Source of the DNA: Agromyces marinus
GTDB lineage: Bacteria > Actinomycetota > Actinomycetes > Actinomycetales > Microbacteriaceae
Direction of reading: 5' to 3'
Assembly (NCBI RefSeq): GCF_021442325.1
Contig: NZ_CP087879.1
Span: 1,984,001 to 2,048,000, forward strand
DNA length: 64,000 nucleotides
Shown here: positions 8,829 through 17,775 of the stretch, in pieces
Position numbering within the stretch: the stretch's first letter is position 1
How the letters are laid out: each line of letters begins with the position of its first letter
Program-made: the position numbers and the translations under genes
The notes under the pieces: generated by a model
What the model was told of the DNA's origin: nothing
Seen by the model: only the letters and a program-made list of their open reading frames with translations
Databases searched by the model: none

Positions 8829-10436
8829 TCACTCCGAGGCGTCGCCCCTCGCGTCGTTGAGCGTGAGCGCCGCGACGACGCCGGCCGCGACCATGAGCAC
8901 CACGCCGAGGATCGAGGTCACGACCACGCCCCCGTCGAACGCGTGCGCGGCGGACGAGAGCAGCGCGGCCGACGCCTCGGCGGGCACCGTCTCCGCGACG
9001 TTCACGGCGCCCGCGAGCGTCTCGCGTGCGGCATCCGCCTGGGCGACCGACAACGCCTCGGGAACCTCGAGGTTGGTGCGGTACCAGGCCGCGAGGATGC
9101 TGCCGAGCAGCGCGGTGCCGAGCACCGCGCCGAGTTCGTACGCGGTCTCGGACACCGCCGAGGCCGCGCCGGCCTTGGCCGGCGGGGCGGTCGAGAGGAT
9201 CATCTCGTTGGAGACGGTCTCGGCCATGCCGATGCCGAGGCCGAGCAGGACGAACGCGATCGCCACGCCGGCGATGCCGCCGCCCGCGGTGAGCGCCACC
9301 ACGACGTAGCCCGCGGCGGAGACCGCGAGCGCCGCCGGGACGAGGATGCGCGCGCGGATGCGCCGCGAGAGCGGCACCACGGCGAGCCCCGCCGCGATCA
9401 TCGTGACCAGCCCGGGGACGAGCGCGAGCCCGGCCATCACCGGGGAGAGCCCGACGACCAGCTGCAGGTGCTGCGACACGAAGTACAGGAAGCCCACGAG
9501 TGCCACGACGCTGAGCAGGTTGACGATCACGCCGCCGCCGAACGCGCCGATGCGGAAGAGTCGCATGTCGAGCATCGGCACGCGCGCACGCAGCTGCCGG
9601 CGCACGAACCAGACGCCCGCCGCGGCGCCGACGAGGATGCAGGCCACGCCGAGCAGGTCGAGCCCCTCGGTCGCGAGGTGCTTGATGCCGAAGACGACGG
9701 CGCCCATGGCGGCGAACGAGAGGAGGATGCTCACGAGATCGATCGGGCCGGGGGCCGGGTCGCGGCTCTCGGGGATGAGCAGCGGCAGCAGCACGACGAG
9801 CGGGATGAGCACGGGCACGGCGAGCAGGAACACCGAGCCCCACGCGAAGTGCTCGAGCAGCACGCCGCCGACGATCGGGCCGAGCGCGGCCCCGGCGGCG
9901 AAGCCGGAGGCCCAGATCGCGATCGCGAGGCGCCGCTCCTCGCGGTCGGTGAAGACCGAGCGCAGGAGCGAGAGCGTGGACGGCATGAGCATCGCACCGA
10001 AGAACCCGAGTCCCGCGCGGGCGGCGATGAGCAGTTCGGCGGTGGGCGCGAACGCCGCGGCGATCGAGACGAGCGCGAAGCCGACCGATCCGATCAGCAG
10101 CATGCGTCGGCGCCCCCAGCGGTCGCCTGCGCTGCCCATCGAGACGAGCAGTGCGGCGAGCACGAGCGGGTAGGCGTCGATGATCCAGAGCTGCTGCGCG
10201 GCGGTGGGCGCGAGGTCGCGCGCGATCGCGGGAAGGGCGAAGCTGAGCACGGTGTTGTCGACGGCGACGAGGAGCACGGGCAGCATGAGCACCGCGAGCG
10301 CGAGCCAGCGTCGCGCTCGCCCGGCGCCCTGCGGGGCACCCCGGCCGGGGTCGGGGCGCAGGCGAGCGGATGCCGCGGGCGCGCCCGATTCGGGCGTGGT
10401 GACGGGGAGCGTCGTGGTGTTGGTGTGGTCGTGCAT
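8829..10436 (-). CDS. MFS drug exporter, DHA2 (14-helix) family
   Basis: A 535-residue transporter with about 14 hydrophobic helices. The DHA2 signatures are clear: LDNT-like AVDNTVLSFALPAI in helix 1, WIIDAYPLVLAALLVSMGSAGDRWGRRR at helices 2-3, and the motif C region GFAAGAALGPIVGG in helix 5. Such proteins export cationic dyes, antiseptics or antibiotics with proton antiport (QacA, LfrA, SmvA types). The start is the ATG at 10434-10436. It is divergent from a TetR gene with a palindromic operator between them, so it is very likely repressed by that TetR. Confidence 0.92.
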   Translation of the reverse strand: MHDHTNTTTLPVTTPESGAPAASARLRPDPGRGAPQGAGRARRWLALAVLMLPVLLVAVDNTVLSFALPAIARDLAPTAAQQLWIIDAYPLVLAALLVSMGSAGDRWGRRRMLLIGSVGFALVSIAAAFAPTAELLIAARAGLGFFGAMLMPSTLSLLRSVFTDREERRLAIAIWASGFAAGAALGPIVGGVLLEHFAWGSVFLLAVPVLIPLVVLLPLLIPESRDPAPGPIDLVSILLSFAAMGAVVFGIKHLATEGLDLLGVACILVGAAAGVWFVRRQLRARVPMLDMRLFRIGAFGGGVIVNLLSVVALVGFLYFVSQHLQLVVGLSPVMAGLALVPGLVTMIAAGLAVVPLSRRIRARILVPAALAVSAAGYVVVALTAGGGIAGVAIAFVLLGLGIGMAETVSNEMILSTAPPAKAGAASAVSETAYELGAVLGTALLGSILAAWYRTNLEVPEALSVAQADAARETLAGAVNVAETVPAEASAALLSSAAHAFDGGVVVTSILGVVLMVAAGVVAALTLNDARGDASE

Positions 10437-10449
10437 GTCGATTCCTATA

Positions 10450-10473
10450 ACTGTACCGGCTAGACGGTAGAGT
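10450..10473. promoter_or_regulatory. Palindromic TetR operator
   Basis: ACT-G-TACCG / CGGTA-G-AGT around a 6-base centre (GCTAGA); each 9-base arm has one central mismatch. It is 13 bases from the exporter start and 42 from the tetR start, so one site can repress both genes. It lies in the only AT-rich stretch of the gap. Confidence 0.7.
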
Positions 10474-10515
10474 ATCAGATGTCGCCGACCACCCGCCATC
10501 GATACCATCGGAGCC

Positions 10516-11079
10516 ATGAGCAGACCCCCCGCCGCACGCGACGCCGTGCTCGACGCCTTCGAGCGGCTCATCATCGCCGACGGCGAACGTGCCGCGACCC
10601 TCGACGCCACCGCGAAGGCGGCCGGCGTCTCGAAGGGCGGCCTGCTCTACCACTTCGGCTCGCGCCAGGCCCTCATCGCCGGCCTGATCGAACGCCTGCA
10701 CCGCCTCGTCGACGACGACGTCGCACGCATCCACGACGCGCCCGACGGCCCGATCTCGTACTTCGTGCGCTCCTCACTCGTCATCGAGACGCCGCTCGAC
10801 CGCAGCTTCATCGCGACCGTGCGCCTCGCACAGGGCGGCGACCGGCAGGCCGGGCAGGCCATCGAAGAGGTCCGCGAACGCTGGCTCGCCGAACTCGGCC
10901 GCCACGTCGACGATCCCGCGCTCGCGATCGCCATAACCCTCATCGGCGACGGGCTGTACTACCACTCCGCGCTCCGCGCGGAAGCCGTCGACGACGTCGG
11001 CACCGGAGGCGACATGAGCCCCGATCAGATGGACGCGCTCGTCGCACTGCTCGAACGACTCGCCGCCGACGGGCACTGA
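10516..11079 (+). CDS. TetR-family repressor of the adjacent exporter
   Basis: 187 residues. The N-terminal helix-turn-helix reads ATLDATAKAAGVSKGGLLYHF, the TetR signature, at about residues 26-46. The C-terminal ligand domain is all-helical and variable, as usual. It is divergent from the DHA2 exporter, with a strong inverted repeat in the gap, so the ligand is probably an exporter substrate. The 3' end carries a 17-base tandem duplication (GACGGGCACTGACG twice, 11068-11097) whose second copy falls just after the stop codon. Confidence 0.9.
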   Translation: MSRPPAARDAVLDAFERLIIADGERAATLDATAKAAGVSKGGLLYHFGSRQALIAGLIERLHRLVDDDVARIHDAPDGPISYFVRSSLVIETPLDRSFIATVRLAQGGDRQAGQAIEEVRERWLAELGRHVDDPALAIAITLIGDGLYYHSALRAEAVDDVGTGGDMSPDQMDALVALLERLAADGH

Positions 11080-12894: not shown

Positions 12895-13257
12895 TCAGAC
12901 GAGCAGCGCGCCGAGCCCGAAGAGCTGGACGACGTCGAGGTACAGCACGGCCGAGACCGCGAGCCCCGCGAGGTACAGCGCCGACTGCAGGAACGCGGAG
13001 CGACGGCGCCCGAGCAGGAACGCGACGCCGAAGATCGCGACCGGCAGCAGCACGGCGATGATCAGGACGACCCACCCCGTGGCGCTCAGGGTCGTCCCGA
13101 GATCCGCCGCGATGCCGCCGACGCCGACCAGGTTGCCGACCGCCTCCCACGCGTCGTACGCGTAGAACAACCCGAACCCGATCGCGAGCACGAGTTCGAG
13201 CCAGAACGGGGTGCGACGCGCGGGCGCGGCATCCGTCGACGACACGTCGGCACTCAC
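12895..13257 (-). CDS. Small four-helix-type membrane protein, unknown
   Basis: 120 residues with about three hydrophobic segments (VLAIGFGLFYAYDAW, TGWVVLIIAVLLPVAIFGVAFL, LYLAGLAVSAVLYLDVVQLFG). The GTG start at 13255-13257 overlaps the stop of the upstream gene by four bases, so the two membrane proteins are co-translated. I do not recognise the family. Both gene products are hydrophobic and of similar size, so they may form one complex. Confidence 0.7.
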   Translation of the reverse strand: MSADVSSTDAAPARRTPFWLELVLAIGFGLFYAYDAWEAVGNLVGVGGIAADLGTTLSATGWVVLIIAVLLPVAIFGVAFLLGRRRSAFLQSALYLAGLAVSAVLYLDVVQLFGLGALLV

Positions 13258-13724
13258 GATCCCACCCCCGCCACGAACGCGACCGGCAGCAGGACGACCG
13301 CGCCGACCGCCAACCAGACGAACCTGCGCACCGTGCGACCCTGCGTGAGCGCGAAGGTCACCCCGAACCACAGCGCGGGCGCGAGCACCGCGAGCCAGAG
13401 GCCGAGCGCGAACATGAACTGTGCGAGCGCATCGGCGCCGGGATTCGTCACCCGGAACACGGTCAGGATCCAGCCCAGCGTGTACAGCAGGTAGGCGCCG
13501 GCGAAGATGCCGAGCAGCACGAGCTCGGTCGAGCCGACCTGGGTCGGGGCTTCGTCGCGGGCCTCCGGGCCAGGTGCAGCGGATGCCGCGGCATCCGTAC
13601 CGTCGACGGTGCCGCCGACCGGGGCGGCCGGCGATGCCCCGCCGCGCTTCCAGCCCTCCGCGAGCGCGGCCTCGTCATCGCCCTCCCACTGGAGGGCTTC
13701 CTCGTCGTCGCCGTCGCGCGCCAT
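13254..13724 (-). CDS. Membrane protein with acidic N-terminal tail, unknown
   Basis: 156 residues. The first 65 are charged and Ala/Pro/Gly rich, probably a disordered cytoplasmic tail. Three membrane helices follow (LVLLGIFAGAYLLYTLGWIL, ALGLWLAVLAPALWFGVTFA, LAVGAVVLLPVAFVAG). The ATG at 13722-13724 is the first in the frame. It is coupled to the next membrane gene by a GTGA overlap. The function is not recognised. Confidence 0.7.
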   Translation of the reverse strand: MARDGDDEEALQWEGDDEAALAEGWKRGGASPAAPVGGTVDGTDAAASAAPGPEARDEAPTQVGSTELVLLGIFAGAYLLYTLGWILTVFRVTNPGADALAQFMFALGLWLAVLAPALWFGVTFALTQGRTVRRFVWLAVGAVVLLPVAFVAGVGS

Positions 13725-13761: not shown

Positions 13762-14082
13762 TCAGCGCCCGCCGAGCGGGCTCAGGTCGTCGTCGATCGC
13801 GGGGACCTCGGCCGGCGAAGGGGTCGGAGACGGCGAAGTCCCCGACTTCGGAGCGGCCGGGCTCAGATCGTCGTCGACGGTCGATTCCGGCAGCTGGAAG
13901 GTCTCGGCCGTCAGACCGGAGTGCAGCGGGCTGAGGTCGTCACGGAGGACGGAGGATGCCGACGTCTGCGCCGACTCGGACGAGTCGTCGGAACGGGTGC
14001 CCTGGCACCCGGCGAGCGCCACGCCGAACGCGACGGCGGACGCGGCAGCGGTGATGCGAATGAGTGCGGTTGCGGTGTTCAT
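13762..14082 (-). CDS. Small lipoprotein with DDLSPL repeats (copy A)
   Basis: 106 residues. A short signal peptide ends in a lipobox VALAGC, with the lipidated Cys at 26. The mature part is low-complexity and contains the motif DDLSP(L) three times: residues 48-53, 71-75 and 98-103, the last at the very C-terminus. The first two are linked by a F-x-LPE stretch. A paralogue (copy B) lies at 17476-17712 with an almost identical leader. The two bracket the SARP-STAND regulator. There is no ribosome site in front of the ATG, and the promoter repeats begin only 22 bases upstream, so the mRNA may be leaderless. I do not recognise the family. A secreted or surface ligand for the regulator's propeller is one possibility. 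Confidence 0.8.
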   Translation of the reverse strand: MNTATALIRITAAASAVAFGVALAGCQGTRSDDSSESAQTSASSVLRDDLSPLHSGLTAETFQLPESTVDDDLSPAAPKSGTSPSPTPSPAEVPAIDDDLSPLGGR

Positions 14083-14083
14083 G
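13985..14083 (-). repeat. 99-bp direct repeat, copy A (lipoprotein leader)
   Basis: The start codon, signal peptide and first mature residues of lipoprotein A match 17615-17713 over 99 bases with about six mismatches and no gaps. Both copies point the same way and are 3.6 kb apart, so recombination between them would delete the regulator. Confidence 0.85.
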
Positions 14084-14103
14084 CTTCGACGGTGCGCCCG
14101 CAA

Positions 14104-14144
14104 GGTATGCGGTCGCGGCGCGACCGGTATGCGGATGGTATGCG
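14104..14144. promoter_or_regulatory. SARP-type operator A: three GGTATGCG repeats, 22 + 11 bp apart
   Basis: Exact copies of GGTATGCG start at 14104, 14126 and 14137. Spacings of 22 and 11 bp are whole DNA helical turns. Regulators with an OmpR-type domain plus BTAD (SARPs) bind such direct heptamer repeats. The array lies between lipoprotein A (start 22 bases away) and the regulator (start 52 bases away). On the lipoprotein strand CACCGT follows nine bases after the last repeat and could be a -10 element. Confidence 0.8.
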
Positions 14145-14195
14145 TCGCCCTCCGCACACGTTGACGCCCCCTCCGGCCGGGAGCACACTTCGGGT

Positions 14196-17100
14196 ATGGG
14201 CATCGGGGTCTTCGGCCCGCTTCGCCTCGACGGCGTCGCACTCAGCCCGCGCGAACGGGTCGTCCTCGCGGCGCTGATCCTCCACGCCGACCGGCCGGTG
14301 TCGACGGATGAACTCGCCGACGCCCTCTGGCACGACGAACCTCCGGGCACGTGGCCGAAGCAGCTCCAGGCATCGATCGGCAGGGTCCGCGCGGCGATCG
14401 GGCGGGACCCCATCGAGACCAGCCCCGGCGGATACGGCATCCGGCTCGACCTCGACACGGTCGACGCCGTGCGATTCGAGCGCTTGGCGTCATCCGCCCG
14501 GGACCACCTCGCGGACGGCGACCCCGCACGCGCGATCGATGCCGCCGACCGGGCGCTCGTGCTGTGGCGCGGCACGCCGTACGCCGACCTGGCCGACTGG
14601 CCCGCGGCCGTCGTCGAGGCCGAGCGGCTCGCTGAGGTGAGGATGGGCCTCGAGGAGGTGCGGCTGGAGGCCCGGCTCGGGCTCGGGGAGCACGCCGCAG
14701 CCGTCGGCGACGCGGAGCGACTCGTCGGCGATGCGCCGCTGCGCGAACGCCGCTGGACCCTGCTCGCGACCGCGCTGTATCGCAGCGGACGGCAGGCGGA
14801 CGCCCTGTCGGCGATCCGTGCGGCCAAGCAGCGGCTCGACGCCGAGCTCGGCGCCGAGCCGGGTGATGAGCTGAGGGCGATCGAGGTCGCCATCCTCCGG
14901 CACGACCCGTCGCTCGCCCCCGGAGCGGTGCCGTCGGCTCCGAGCGACACGTGCCCGTACCGCGGGCTCTCGCCGTTCGGCGTCGACGACGAGGACGACT
15001 TCTTCGGTCGCACCGCCGAGATCGGCGCGACGCTCGCTCGTCTCGCGCGCTCGCGAACCCTCGCGGTGACGGGAGCCTCGGGCAGCGGCAAGTCGTCGCT
15101 CGTGCGCGCGGGGGTCGTCCCGACGCTGCGACGGCGCGGCGACCGGGTCGCCCTCTTGATCCCGGGGCGCGACCTGGCTGTGCGCGTGCGCGACTCCGTC
15201 CGCGGTCGAGGCCGCGCCGATGTCGTCGTGATCGATCAGTTCGAGGAGGTCTTCCACGCCGGTGAGGCCGACATCGACGACGCCGCGTCGGCGATCGCCG
15301 AGGCGGCCGAGACCCGGACCGTCGTGGTCGTCATCCGCTCGGACTTCCTGGATGCGTGCGCCGCGCACCCGGACCTCGCGCCGCTCGTGACCGATGAGGT
15401 CCAGGTCGTGGGCCCGATGTCGCCGGGTGCGCTTCGCGAGGCGATCGAGCAACCGGCCGCTCGTGCGGGGCTGCGCCTCGAGCCCGGGCTGGTCGAACTG
15501 CTGCTGCGGGATGCGGCAGACGAGCCGGGCGCCCTCCCCCATCTGTCGCACGCCCTGGTGGAGACCTGGCTGCGTCGCGAGGGGGCGACGCTCACGGTCG
15601 CCGGCTACGAGGCCTCCGGGGGCATCTCGGGTGCCATCGCCCAGTCGGCGGACCGGCTCTACCAGTCGCTCGACGACGACCAGCGTGCGATGTGCCGCTC
15701 GGTCCTCCTGCGTCTGGTCGCCCTGGGACCGGACGGCAGCCCCGTGCGGCGCCGGATCCCGTCCAAACCCCTCCGGACGGATGCCGCCCGCGACGACGTG
15801 CTCGCCCGGCTGGCCGGCGCACGGCTGGTCAGCGCGGAGGCCGACTCGATCGAGGTCGCCCACGAGTCGCTGGCGCGCGCATGGCCGCGACTGCACGCGT
15901 GGCTCGAGGAGTACGAGGAGAGCACGCGATCGCTCACGGCCGTCGCGGCCGCGGCCGACTCGTGGGATGCGGCCGGGCGGCCCGACGACGACCTGTACCG
16001 CGGGGCACGCCTGCAGTCGGCGATCGAGTGGCGGGATGCCGCGCCGCGCGACCTGACCGAGATGGAGGCCTCGTTCCTCGACCGCTCGGCCGCCCTCGCC
16101 ACGGCGGAACGGGACGAGCTCGCCGCGCGAGCGCATCGGGAGCGAAGGCAGAATCGTCGGCTTCGGGGGCTGCTCGGGGCCGCAGCCGGTCTCATCGTGC
16201 TGCTCGTCGGGGCGGGCTCGATCGCCGTCGTCGCCACCGGGGAGGCCGACCGGCAGCGCGACAGCGCGATGATCGAGGCCCTCGTCGGGACCGCACTGTC
16301 CGTGCGGTCCTCGGAGCGGGACGTGTCCGCGCTCCTGGCGGCGGAGGCGTACCGGCGCTGGCCCGAGGACCCGCGGACGCGCTCCGCGCTCATGGGCGTC
16401 CTCCAGGGTGCGGAAGGCTTCCTCGGGAACGCGTTCATCGACGGTCCGCAGCACTCGTGGGGCGCTGCCGTCCCCGGCACCGGGAACGGCCATCGCCGGA
16501 TACTCCTACGAGGGCTCCTCGATCGTGACCGCCACGAGACGGAGCGCCTCGATCTTCGCGGACGGCTGGGCCGACGCGGCCGTCACCGACACCGCGTCGG
16601 GCGCGAAGTCCGTCTCGTTCCCCGAGCCGATCGGCGACGCGGCGTGGATCGCGGGCGGACGCGTGCTCGCGCGCCACGACTCCGACGGACTGTTCCACGC
16701 CCTCGAAGCCGAGACGGGGATGGTCGGGACCGAGGGCCTGGAACTGTCTCGCCTCTGGGTGACGGATGCCGGGACCCGCGTCCAGGCGATGGACCCGCAC
16801 GGCGTGATCACGCCGCTCGATGCTGCCGACCTCCGGCCGGCAGGAATGCCGCTCGAACGCGACGGATGGCCCATCTGGTTCGCCAAGTCCCCGGACGGCG
16901 AACGCGTCAGCGTCTCGTACTTCGTCGAGCCCGTGCGAACCGCCGACGGAACCCTGACCCGGATCCGCGTCGACGTGCTGGACCCCGACGACCACCGTGT
17001 GATCTCGAGCGAGCCTCTCCCGGCCGGCGGAACGGTGATCCTCGACACCGGCGATCTCATCGGCCTCGAGGACAACCGGATCGGTCGATACGAGTCGGAC

Positions 17101-17469
17101 GGCTTGAGCCGGGTGGGGAGCCTCACCGGAACCGCGGGCGGCCTCGGCATCCCGAAGCTCAGCGTCGACGGTCGAACCCTGCTCATCACGGCCGCCGACG
17201 GCAGCGGCATGCTGTTCGACCTCCCGAGCGGCATCCGGATCGGTGAACCCTTCCGCATGGACCCGGGCACGCTCGGCGCCGGACACCTTCGCCCGGACGG
17301 GCTCGAGATGGCCCTCAGCATGCCCGAGGGCGTCGTCGTCTGGGACCTCGACCCGACCCACCAGTTCGACGCGGTCTGCCGCATCGCCGGGCGCGAACTC
17401 AGCGCCGACGAGTGGCGCACGTACCTGTCCGACCTCGGCGAGCAGGTGAGCACGTGCGGGTTCGACTGA
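14196..17469 (+). CDS. Membrane-anchored SARP/BTAD-STAND regulator with C-terminal propeller, frame broken once
   Basis: Domain order: OmpR-type DNA-binding domain (about residues 1-90), BTAD helical repeats (about 92-240), a STAND-type NTPase with Walker [10 protein letters not shown] (293-301) and Walker B VVVIDQFEEVF (near 346), one membrane helix (about 658-682), then a propeller-like region ending in the family's CRIAGRELSADEWRTYL motif. The cytoplasmic half should bind DNA and ATP, and the propeller should lie outside the membrane. The frame from 14196 runs well to about 16484 and then turns into Arg-rich shadow. Removing one A of GGGAACGG (16485 or 16486) restores a frame of about 1,090 residues to 17469. 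This is a real mutation or a sequencing error. It is flanked by two DDLSPL lipoproteins whose promoters carry SARP-type repeats, so they are the probable targets. Confidence 0.82.
16478..16490 (+). other. Apparent +1 frameshift point in the STAND regulator
   Basis: Protein similarity to propeller repeats leaves one frame and continues in another here. Upstream the frame reads PQHSWGAAVPGTG, and downstream the other frame reads TAIAGYSYEGSSIVTA. Deleting one A of GGGAACGG joins them smoothly. I see no slippery heptamer or stem that would suggest programmed shifting. Confidence 0.7.
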
Positions 17470-17475
17470 CCGTGC

Positions 17476-17712
17476 TCAGCATCCCGCGAGCGGGCTCAGG
17501 TCGTCGGCCTCCGGCTCCGGGAGCCGGAACGGCTCGACCAGCGGCCGTGACCGCAGCGGGCTGAGGTCGTCTGGGACGACGGCGGATGCCGGCGGCTTCG
17601 CCGACCCGCCGGAATCGTCGGAACGGGTGCCCTGGCACCCGGCGAGCGCCGCGCCGAGAACGACGGCGGACGCGGCAGCGGTGATGCGAGCGAGTGCGGT
17701 TGCGGTGTTCAT
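17476..17712 (-). CDS. Small lipoprotein with DDLSPL repeats (copy B)
   Basis: 78 residues, paralogous to copy A. The signal peptide MNTATALARITAAASAV runs to AALAGC, with the lipidated Cys at 26. The mature part of 53 residues has DDLSPL at residues 48-53 and 70-75, separated by PFRLPEPE, and ends three residues later in AGC. A C-terminal cysteine replaces the Arg of copy A. It is convergent with the regulator, only six bases from its stop codon. No ribosome site precedes the ATG. The operator repeats start 23 bases upstream with the same layout as in copy A. Confidence 0.78.
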   Translation of the reverse strand: MNTATALARITAAASAVVLGAALAGCQGTRSDDSGGSAKPPASAVVPDDLSPLRSRPLVEPFRLPEPEADDLSPLAGC

Positions 17713-17713
17713 G
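17615..17713 (-). repeat. 99-bp direct repeat, copy B (lipoprotein leader)
   Basis: Partner of 13985-14083, with about six mismatches in 99 bases and the same orientation. It shows that the two lipoproteins come from one duplication. Confidence 0.85.
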
Positions 17714-17734
17714 TCTCCGACGTTGCCCCTGCCG

Positions 17735-17775
17735 GGTATGCGACGCCGCCCCGCCGGGTATGCGGACGGTATGCG
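17735..17775. promoter_or_regulatory. SARP-type operator B: three GGTATGCG repeats, 22 + 11 bp apart
   Basis: Exact GGTATGCG copies start at 17735, 17757 and 17768, with the same 22 then 11 bp spacing as operator A. The surrounding bases differ between the two arrays, so the repeats look selected rather than merely copied. On the lipoprotein strand CAACGT stands nine bases after the last repeat, matching CACCGT at operator A. Confidence 0.8.

Follow-up and report, generated by a model that had tools for sequence, protein, structure and literature searches.

A putative surface-signalling cassette of Agromyces that pairs a membrane-anchored SARP-STAND regulator with its own lipoproteins

Introduction

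Which signal is received, and which genes are driven, by a SARP regulator that carries a membrane helix and stands between two lipoprotein genes? The question is raised by positions 13762 to 17775 of a 64,000-nucleotide stretch of Agromyces marinus DNA, here called the window, whose genome of origin is assembled as one contig of 3,202,016 bases. In this locus, a plus-strand regulator gene is flanked by the genes lip1 (13762-14082) and lip2 (17476-17712), both on the minus strand. Large SARPs are known mainly as cytoplasmic antibiotic regulators, and their input is unclear. An earlier note on this DNA had proposed that the regulator and the two lipoproteins form a closed unit of sensor, output, and possible ligand.

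The window locus belongs to a family of cassettes in which a SARP-STAND regulator is joined to a divergent lipoprotein gene by an operator of fixed spacing. The chances appear about even that these are private surface-signalling cassettes, in which the receptor drives, and perhaps senses, its own lipoprotein. The pairing that the earlier note described is conserved (30 of 42 regulators of the genus), whereas the window regulator is not the intact sensor that it was taken for. Likewise, the twin-lipoprotein module is real, but the twin layout is one form of a larger and often tandem cassette family.

The Cassette Family in Agromyces

The N-terminal part of the window regulator finds matches at E 1e-60 or better in 24 of the 60 genomes of the genus (43 rows), and the counts of regulators rest on 42 of these rows, window included. 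Thirty-four regulators are single frames of 1365-1443 amino acids. The other eight comprise the window copy, four frame-broken genes (in genomes G018, G003, G013, and G030), one G011 gene truncated where its contig stops, and a pair of shorter regulators with 1119 and 1121 amino acids. A GGTAnnnn-type triple repeat is present at 33 regulators and a divergent lipoprotein, called by a lipobox rule, at 33, with both found at 30. Tandem arrays hold up to four regulators consecutively (G018, G020). At least one of serA, cutC, ilvC, or a small membrane protein adjoins 25 of the 31 regulator loci, and because of these shared neighbours most of the loci appear to lie at one chromosomal place.

The co-occurrence of lipoprotein and regulator was followed with a profile of nine ADRYV-type cassette lipoproteins, for which part of the first-look candidates was scored. 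It finds 13 genes above 50 bits in 12 of the 60 genomes, every one of them beside a regulator. Nine of these are members of the query itself; the four independent ones (the downstream genes of G031 and G055 and the genes in G003 and G022) adjoin regulators as well. The remaining profile rows, all below 35 bits, are further copies within genes already found, matches to the signal-peptide start of lipoproteins from the window and from G018, and stretches of other frames of 184-1232 amino acids. At the serA-ilvC place itself, 35 loci were inspected in genomes without a regulator there, and MNT-type lipoproteins, GGTA triple sites, and regulators are absent from all of them. The loci come from 33 of the 36 regulator-less genomes and from G007 and G046, which carry their regulators at another position; the inspected stretch extends to serA in 25 cases and stops short of it in 10. 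The suggestion that the lipoproteins adjoin such regulators has thus held wherever it was followed. Searched as a single sequence, lip2 has only weak matches (E 2.6e-4 to 8.8e-4), which fall in five of the 59 other genomes; two of the five lie in cassettes.

Operator and Promoter Logic

The triple repeat lies 91-95 base pairs (bp) from the regulator start, with one duplicated site in locus L095 at 125. Its distance to the ATG of the lipoprotein gene is 21-22 bp, or 54-55 bp for members of the GATATC clade. On the lipoprotein strand, the pattern TACC-N9-[GC]AnnnT is found in 26 of 28 GGTA-type cassettes; it is missing at L078_7149, which lacks a lipoprotein, and at the second L095 site. On the regulator side, TTGAC is found in 27 of the 28. 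In both directions a -10-like hexamer, read by eye, stands 6-7 bp before each start codon, so that both transcripts are probably leaderless. For SARP promoters, PMC10936776 describes direct repeats spaced by 11 or 22 bp, the 3' repeat being separated from the -10 element by 8 bp. The cassettes, with repeats at 22 and 11 bp and 9 bp from the TACC core to the -10, match this rule within one base, depending on the assumed repeat end. Given the fixed spacing and the SARP-type -10 before the lipoprotein, the operator therefore probably serves the lipoprotein gene.

Both lipoprotein promoters of the window follow this plan, and the SARP-type repeats that the earlier note saw there are borne out by the cassette pattern. 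The lip1 repeats (14104-14144, minus strand) consist of GGTATGCG three times in plus-strand reading, 22 and 11 bp apart, and are followed by a -10-like CACCGT (14089-14094, minus strand), which stands 6 bp from the ATG and is separated by 9 bp from the TACC of the closest repeat. The lip2 repeats (17735-17775, minus strand) hold GGTATGCG three times at the same 22 and 11 bp, and a -10-like CAACGT (17720-17725, minus strand) was read by eye using the cassette pattern. The likely promoter of the regulator, TTGACG-N17-CACACT (14161-14189, plus strand; -10 read by eye), ends 6 bp before its start codon. In the window's own genome, a search with the exact triple geometry and up to three mismatches returns only the lip1 and lip2 sites (2 hits, 0 in the control), and a search for paired repeats returns 4 hits (0 in the control).

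The letters of the operator differ between cassettes: GGTATGCG in the window, and GGTATCCG, GGTATGGA, GGTACTCG, GGTATGAG, GGTATCGG, and GATATCCG in others. At repeat positions 4-8, the repeats of one cassette differ by 0.83 mismatches on average and those of different cassettes by 1.91 (33 sites, permutation P 0.0005). Across 28 cassettes, site differences correlate with those of regulator residues 1-49 (r 0.48), BTAD (0.41), STAND (0.40), the recognition helix (0.32), and the propeller (0.22). The helix follows the site letters when the propeller is accounted for (P 0.001), whereas the propeller given the helix does not (P 0.39). Within the SARP-STAND half, the helix yields P 0.045 given STAND and P 0.052 given BTAD. 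Because STAND given the helix (P 0.006) and BTAD given the helix (P 0.002) stay significant, the recognition helix is not separable from the rest of this half. A loose genus-wide scan for GGTAN triples gave 48 hits, 36 of these rows within arrays, against 69 in a backward control; since the control exceeds the pattern, this count is no evidence.

Two observations concern operators of other loci. L095 of G048 carries two tandem copies of the triple operator at a distance of 33 bp (9790-9823). Furthermore, the sites at G020:C12:27236 (L076), G013:C3:778325 (L080), and L078:17547 (G012) are linked to secreted proteins without a lipobox (by eye) that bear several LRQxxEEDRAP-like or DPRGHH-like copies; they lie in arrays and not beside a regulator start.

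The Sensor Half of Intact Relatives

The part that follows the membrane helix was modelled with AlphaFold2 on residues 722-1405 of the G031 regulator (L083) together with 33 relatives. The model reaches a predicted local distance difference test score (pLDDT) of 90.6 and a predicted template modelling score (pTM) of 0.84, and it holds 52 strands of at least three residues in about 13 blades, with two C-terminal helices. In this prediction the intact sensor half is two beta-propellers, where the earlier note had assumed one. Foldseek matches of the model include the tandem WD proteins AIP1 (1nr0), Utp21 (4nsx), and Apaf-1 (3shf). Since whole-pair template modelling scores range from 0.22 to 0.40 and do not go beyond, the two propellers are probably positioned differently relative to each other than in these proteins.

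The location of this half can be predicted from charge. The 15 residues that lead into the membrane helix of the window regulator include 6 lysines or arginines and the 15 that follow it include 2, and because of this excess before the helix the C-terminal side is predicted outside. The outer-side topology proposed earlier therefore holds as a prediction. Among 34 sequences, the cysteines at reference residues 1376 and 1402 are invariant and those at 991 and 1005 nearly so, which fits with an outside location of the propellers.

The Window Regulator

In the window copy, the N-terminal part (residues 1-764; 14196-16487, plus strand) is intact by domain matches and family alignment. It comprises an OmpR-type DNA-binding domain (residues 14-78), BTAD (89-234), nSTAND1 (254-597), and the membrane helix (662-680). 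Trans_reg_C scores 34.5 bits (cut-off 26.2) and BTAD 126.9 bits (cut-off 22.1), as in a SARP; nSTAND1 (PF20703) scores 339.9 bits (cut-off 27.1) with the P-loop GASGSGKSS, as in a STAND NTPase. The frame that starts at 14196 departs from the family after residue 764, and the family resumes at reference residue 1072 in another frame. Compared with four aligned full-length relatives, about 944 bp are missing, and the junction of this internal deletion and frame change lies at 16477-16489 (plus strand; exact base approximate). The deleted stretch corresponds to about reference residues 765-1071, or model residues 44-350, that is, to most of the first propeller. The second beta-propeller and the C-terminal helices (16489-17469, plus strand) are out of frame with the N-terminal part and contain no internal stop. 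The window copy thus lacks the two propellers in frame, and of the single regulator described in the earlier note the OmpR-type domain, BTAD, STAND, and membrane helix stood, whereas a propeller in the same frame did not.

An assembly or sequencing error in an otherwise whole regulator would explain why the missing length is off a multiple of three by one base only and why a single propeller is affected. Errors of base calling, however, are unlikely to remove about 944 bp from a genome assembled as one contig, and this explanation is improbable. The putative signalling loop of the window is therefore read as decayed; lip1, lip2, their operators, and the SARP-STAND-membrane part of the regulator survive.

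It is a serious possibility, not far short of an even chance, that the window copy is a pseudogene in decay, without function today, and that its two lipoproteins are leftovers. The deletion with its frame change speaks for decay, as do the four other Agromyces regulators that are frame-broken elsewhere and the absence of a regulator divergent from lip2. On the other hand, neither lipoprotein gene is damaged, nor are the promoters, the operators, or the SARP-STAND frame, and GC by codon position in the propeller half is still of the coding type (0.69, 0.52, 0.905); because of the latter, the break is either young or the leftover piece is still maintained. This explanation concerns the window copy and not the family. 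Modelled alone, the leftover C-terminal half is predicted as sheets arranged much as in a propeller, with a pair of helices at the C terminus (pLDDT 87.8, pTM 0.83).

The four other breaks are found at L075:5928 (G018; about reference residue 737), L090:12791 (G003; 640-681), L080:13699 (G013; 902), and L101:4824 (G030; 136). Together with the window, 5 of 42 regulators are frame-broken, for which decay, phase variation, or sequencing errors are possible. A shared programmed frameshift at the start of the propellers was considered and rejected, as these breaks lie at other places. It was also considered that lip2 might be the remnant of a lost second cassette; this was set aside, not rejected, because the two-sided layout recurs in G031 and G055.

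The remaining propeller of the window is nearest (about 60%) to that of a G018 cassette whose lipoprotein holds DDVLSPL, whereas the BTAD-STAND half is nearer to ADRYV-type cassettes. A separate observation concerns a mosaic regulator of G018 (L075:6417-10658). Its BTAD-STAND part is up to 73% like that of ADRYV-type cassettes and has its own operator letters, whereas its propeller is only about 24% like theirs and nearer to the VKECA-type clade (37-38%). At sequence level this regulator suggests domain exchange between cassettes.

Cassettes beyond the Genus

The family search finds members in at least 10 of 398 genomes, a lower bound because two candidates were scored per genome. Of 52 loci outside Agromyces, 47 were tested for upstream repeats. 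In 23 of them an exact 6-mer stands three times before the regulator, at 22/11 or 21/11 bp; shuffled sequences would give 0.01 such cases, and 160 windows taken elsewhere in these loci give 0. The divergent partners are diverse. In Demequina subtropica the partner holds a repeated DDAYVPMSCVPKGAYGESE block, and in Actinotalea EHLNRIPLGP occurs twice. The Nocardioides lipoproteins are of 85 and 87 amino acids, those in metagenome-assembled genomes of Acidimicrobiales and Chloroflexota exceed 400, and the Kribbella partner, judged by eye, combines a signal peptide with a hydrophobic helix at its C terminus.

Lipoprotein Partners and the Proposed Signalling Loop

The two lipoproteins of the window are paralogues, as the earlier note had recognized. 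The lip1 precursor (106 amino acids) and the lip2 precursor (78 amino acids) share 70% identity over 76 residues, and both have a lipobox LAGC by inspection. DDLSP occurs three times in lip1, within RDDLSPLH, DDDLSPAA, and the C-terminal DDDLSPLGGR (two of them DDLSPL), and DDLSPL occurs twice in lip2. Neither protein scores above the cut-off of any curated family. The mature partners of other cassettes carry cassette-specific and usually repeated motifs of their own, such as ADRYVnELLVRA, DLAERR, DLAESRAQ, and NDNDPRGHH. The internal repeat score goes beyond shuffles (P <0.05) in 20 of 33 mature partners, with P 0.020 for lip2. DDLSPL-like C termini recur in second, downstream secreted partners of G031 (HDDLSPLDGR) and G055 (DQDLSPLNPR), which have the two-sided layout of the window.

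From the gene architecture, conserved spacing, operator variation, predicted propellers, and co-occurrence described above, the following mechanism can be proposed. The regulator would be a one-component membrane receptor. Outside, two tandem beta-propellers would bind short linear motifs; inside, the STAND NTPase would hold or release the OmpR/BTAD (SARP) activator. Once engaged, the SARP half would bind the triple repeat and recruit RNA polymerase to the divergent lipoprotein promoter. For topology, DNA binding, and activation we infer these steps from family knowledge. The lipoprotein, or a secreted sister such as the downstream gene of G031, would display or release copies of the cassette motif. 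This motif would be the most likely ligand of the propellers. The loop would then be autoinducing and would inform a cell about others of its own type or about the condition of the surface. The role of the lipoprotein as ligand, which we infer from the cassette anatomy, is the least secure step. Since motifs and operator letters differ between cassettes, several may run side by side.

Several observations weigh against such a self-sensing loop. Nine of the 42 regulators have no detectable lipoprotein and nine have no site of the triple-repeat pattern. Internal repeats are not significant in 13 of 33 partners, and lip1 itself is borderline (P 0.065). A partial Mantel test of lipoprotein against propeller, given the N-terminal half, gives r 0.08 and P 0.13 (P 0.16 for the whole propeller half), most lipoprotein pairs being too diverged to compare; the partial Mantel test of lipoprotein against the N-terminal half gives P 0.08. 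L082_16644 and L090_5993 have propellers that are 87% identical and lipoproteins that differ strongly except for a C-terminal ERRL motif. Among loci of other genera, divergent partners are in some cases large or without a lipobox, and at several loci none is recognized.

Because of the non-significant co-divergence and the differing lipoproteins of this pair, a second explanation stays live, though it is less probable. The lipoprotein could be an output and not a ligand: the propellers would sense something else outside the cell (a wall fragment, a phage, or a competitor molecule), and the SARP half would coat the surface with a decoy, adhesin, or shield. An operator at the lipoprotein promoter would be expected of any output, and partners that vary in size and kind outside the genus agree with such a role, as do the co-divergence result (P 0.13) and near-identical propellers (87%) beside very different lipoproteins. 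The short, cassette-specific, and often repeated motifs and the absence of a further operator of triple geometry in the window's own genome suggest instead a closed loop.

If the loop is closed, its sign could also be negative. In that case the lipoprotein would be a feedback inhibitor, whose bound motif keeps the STAND receptor closed until the lipoprotein is lost or cleaved at the surface and the receptor is released. The same anatomy would serve, and STAND proteins are presumed inactive at rest without a stimulus according to PMC10936776. Although the present data do not separate the sign of the loop, an inhibitory role is considered rather unlikely.

The autoinducing loop has a wider consequence, which is put forward tentatively and as somewhat less probable than the cassette itself. 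The cassettes could represent a new class of bacterial cell-cell signalling in which transmembrane, Apaf-1-like SARP-STAND receptors read the short, repeated motifs that their own lipoproteins display or release, in arrays of separately diversified receptor-ligand-operator sets, and thereby recognize same-type neighbours. With the input side predicted outside the membrane, a linked candidate ligand, and a built-in reporter in the divergent promoter, the question of what STAND-SARP proteins sense becomes directly testable. In addition, the arrays of up to four regulators provide a natural set of apparently orthogonal operator-regulator pairs.

Comparison with Known Systems

The N-terminal half resembles AfsR of Streptomyces, its best solved relatives being 8k60 and 8jke (E about 1e-47, profile positions 4-283). 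AfsR consists of an OmpR domain, BTA, NOD, and C-terminal TPR, whereas in the cassette regulator a membrane helix is followed by two propellers, predicted outside, and the gene of a secreted partner is linked to it. An AfsR equivalog was rejected, as the relative L083 scores 161.7 bits against NCBIfam NF053617, with a cut-off of 1430. Apaf-1 likewise has a STAND NTPase followed by two propellers (3shf at rank 44 in the fold search, with a sequence-profile match as well). Apaf-1 is cytosolic and has a CARD. In the cassette, by contrast, a membrane helix precedes the propellers, which are predicted on its far side, and a DNA-binding activator serves as the effector.

Peptide pheromones of the cAD1 type derive from the signal-peptide part of lipoproteins. 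The cassette motif lies instead in the mature part and is often C-terminal. What is shared with these sex pheromones of enterococci (PMC7074142) is the lipoprotein as a possible source of a peptide signal. STAND-type NTPases and propellers also occur in variable conflict systems of multicellular bacteria (PMC7159879); in the main text of that article, SARP, BTAD, and AfsR never occur and lipoprotein occurs once. A known anti-phage defence system was rejected with PADLOC, in which L083 and L088 give only weak mad8/mad3 matches inside the NTPase region. No precedent for the regulator-lipoprotein pairing was found in the literature searched, which comprised the top-ranked matches for several queries, with subscription papers and preprints outside its scope.

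Neighbouring Genes and Other Loci

Two diverged regulators, in L089 (G036) and L100 (G007), lie away from the serA-ilvC place and are paired with lipoproteins of 253 and 284 amino acids, which are not repeat lipoproteins. In the window, a small membrane-protein-like frame without a Pfam match lies at 13254-13724. A homologue of this frame lies near serA or ilvC in 20 of the 31 regulator loci (39-66% identity) and is also present in 26 of the 35 loci without a cassette. At lower coordinates, a long hydrophobic frame (8829-11079), MFS transporter-like judging from translations only, is divergent from a TetR-like frame.

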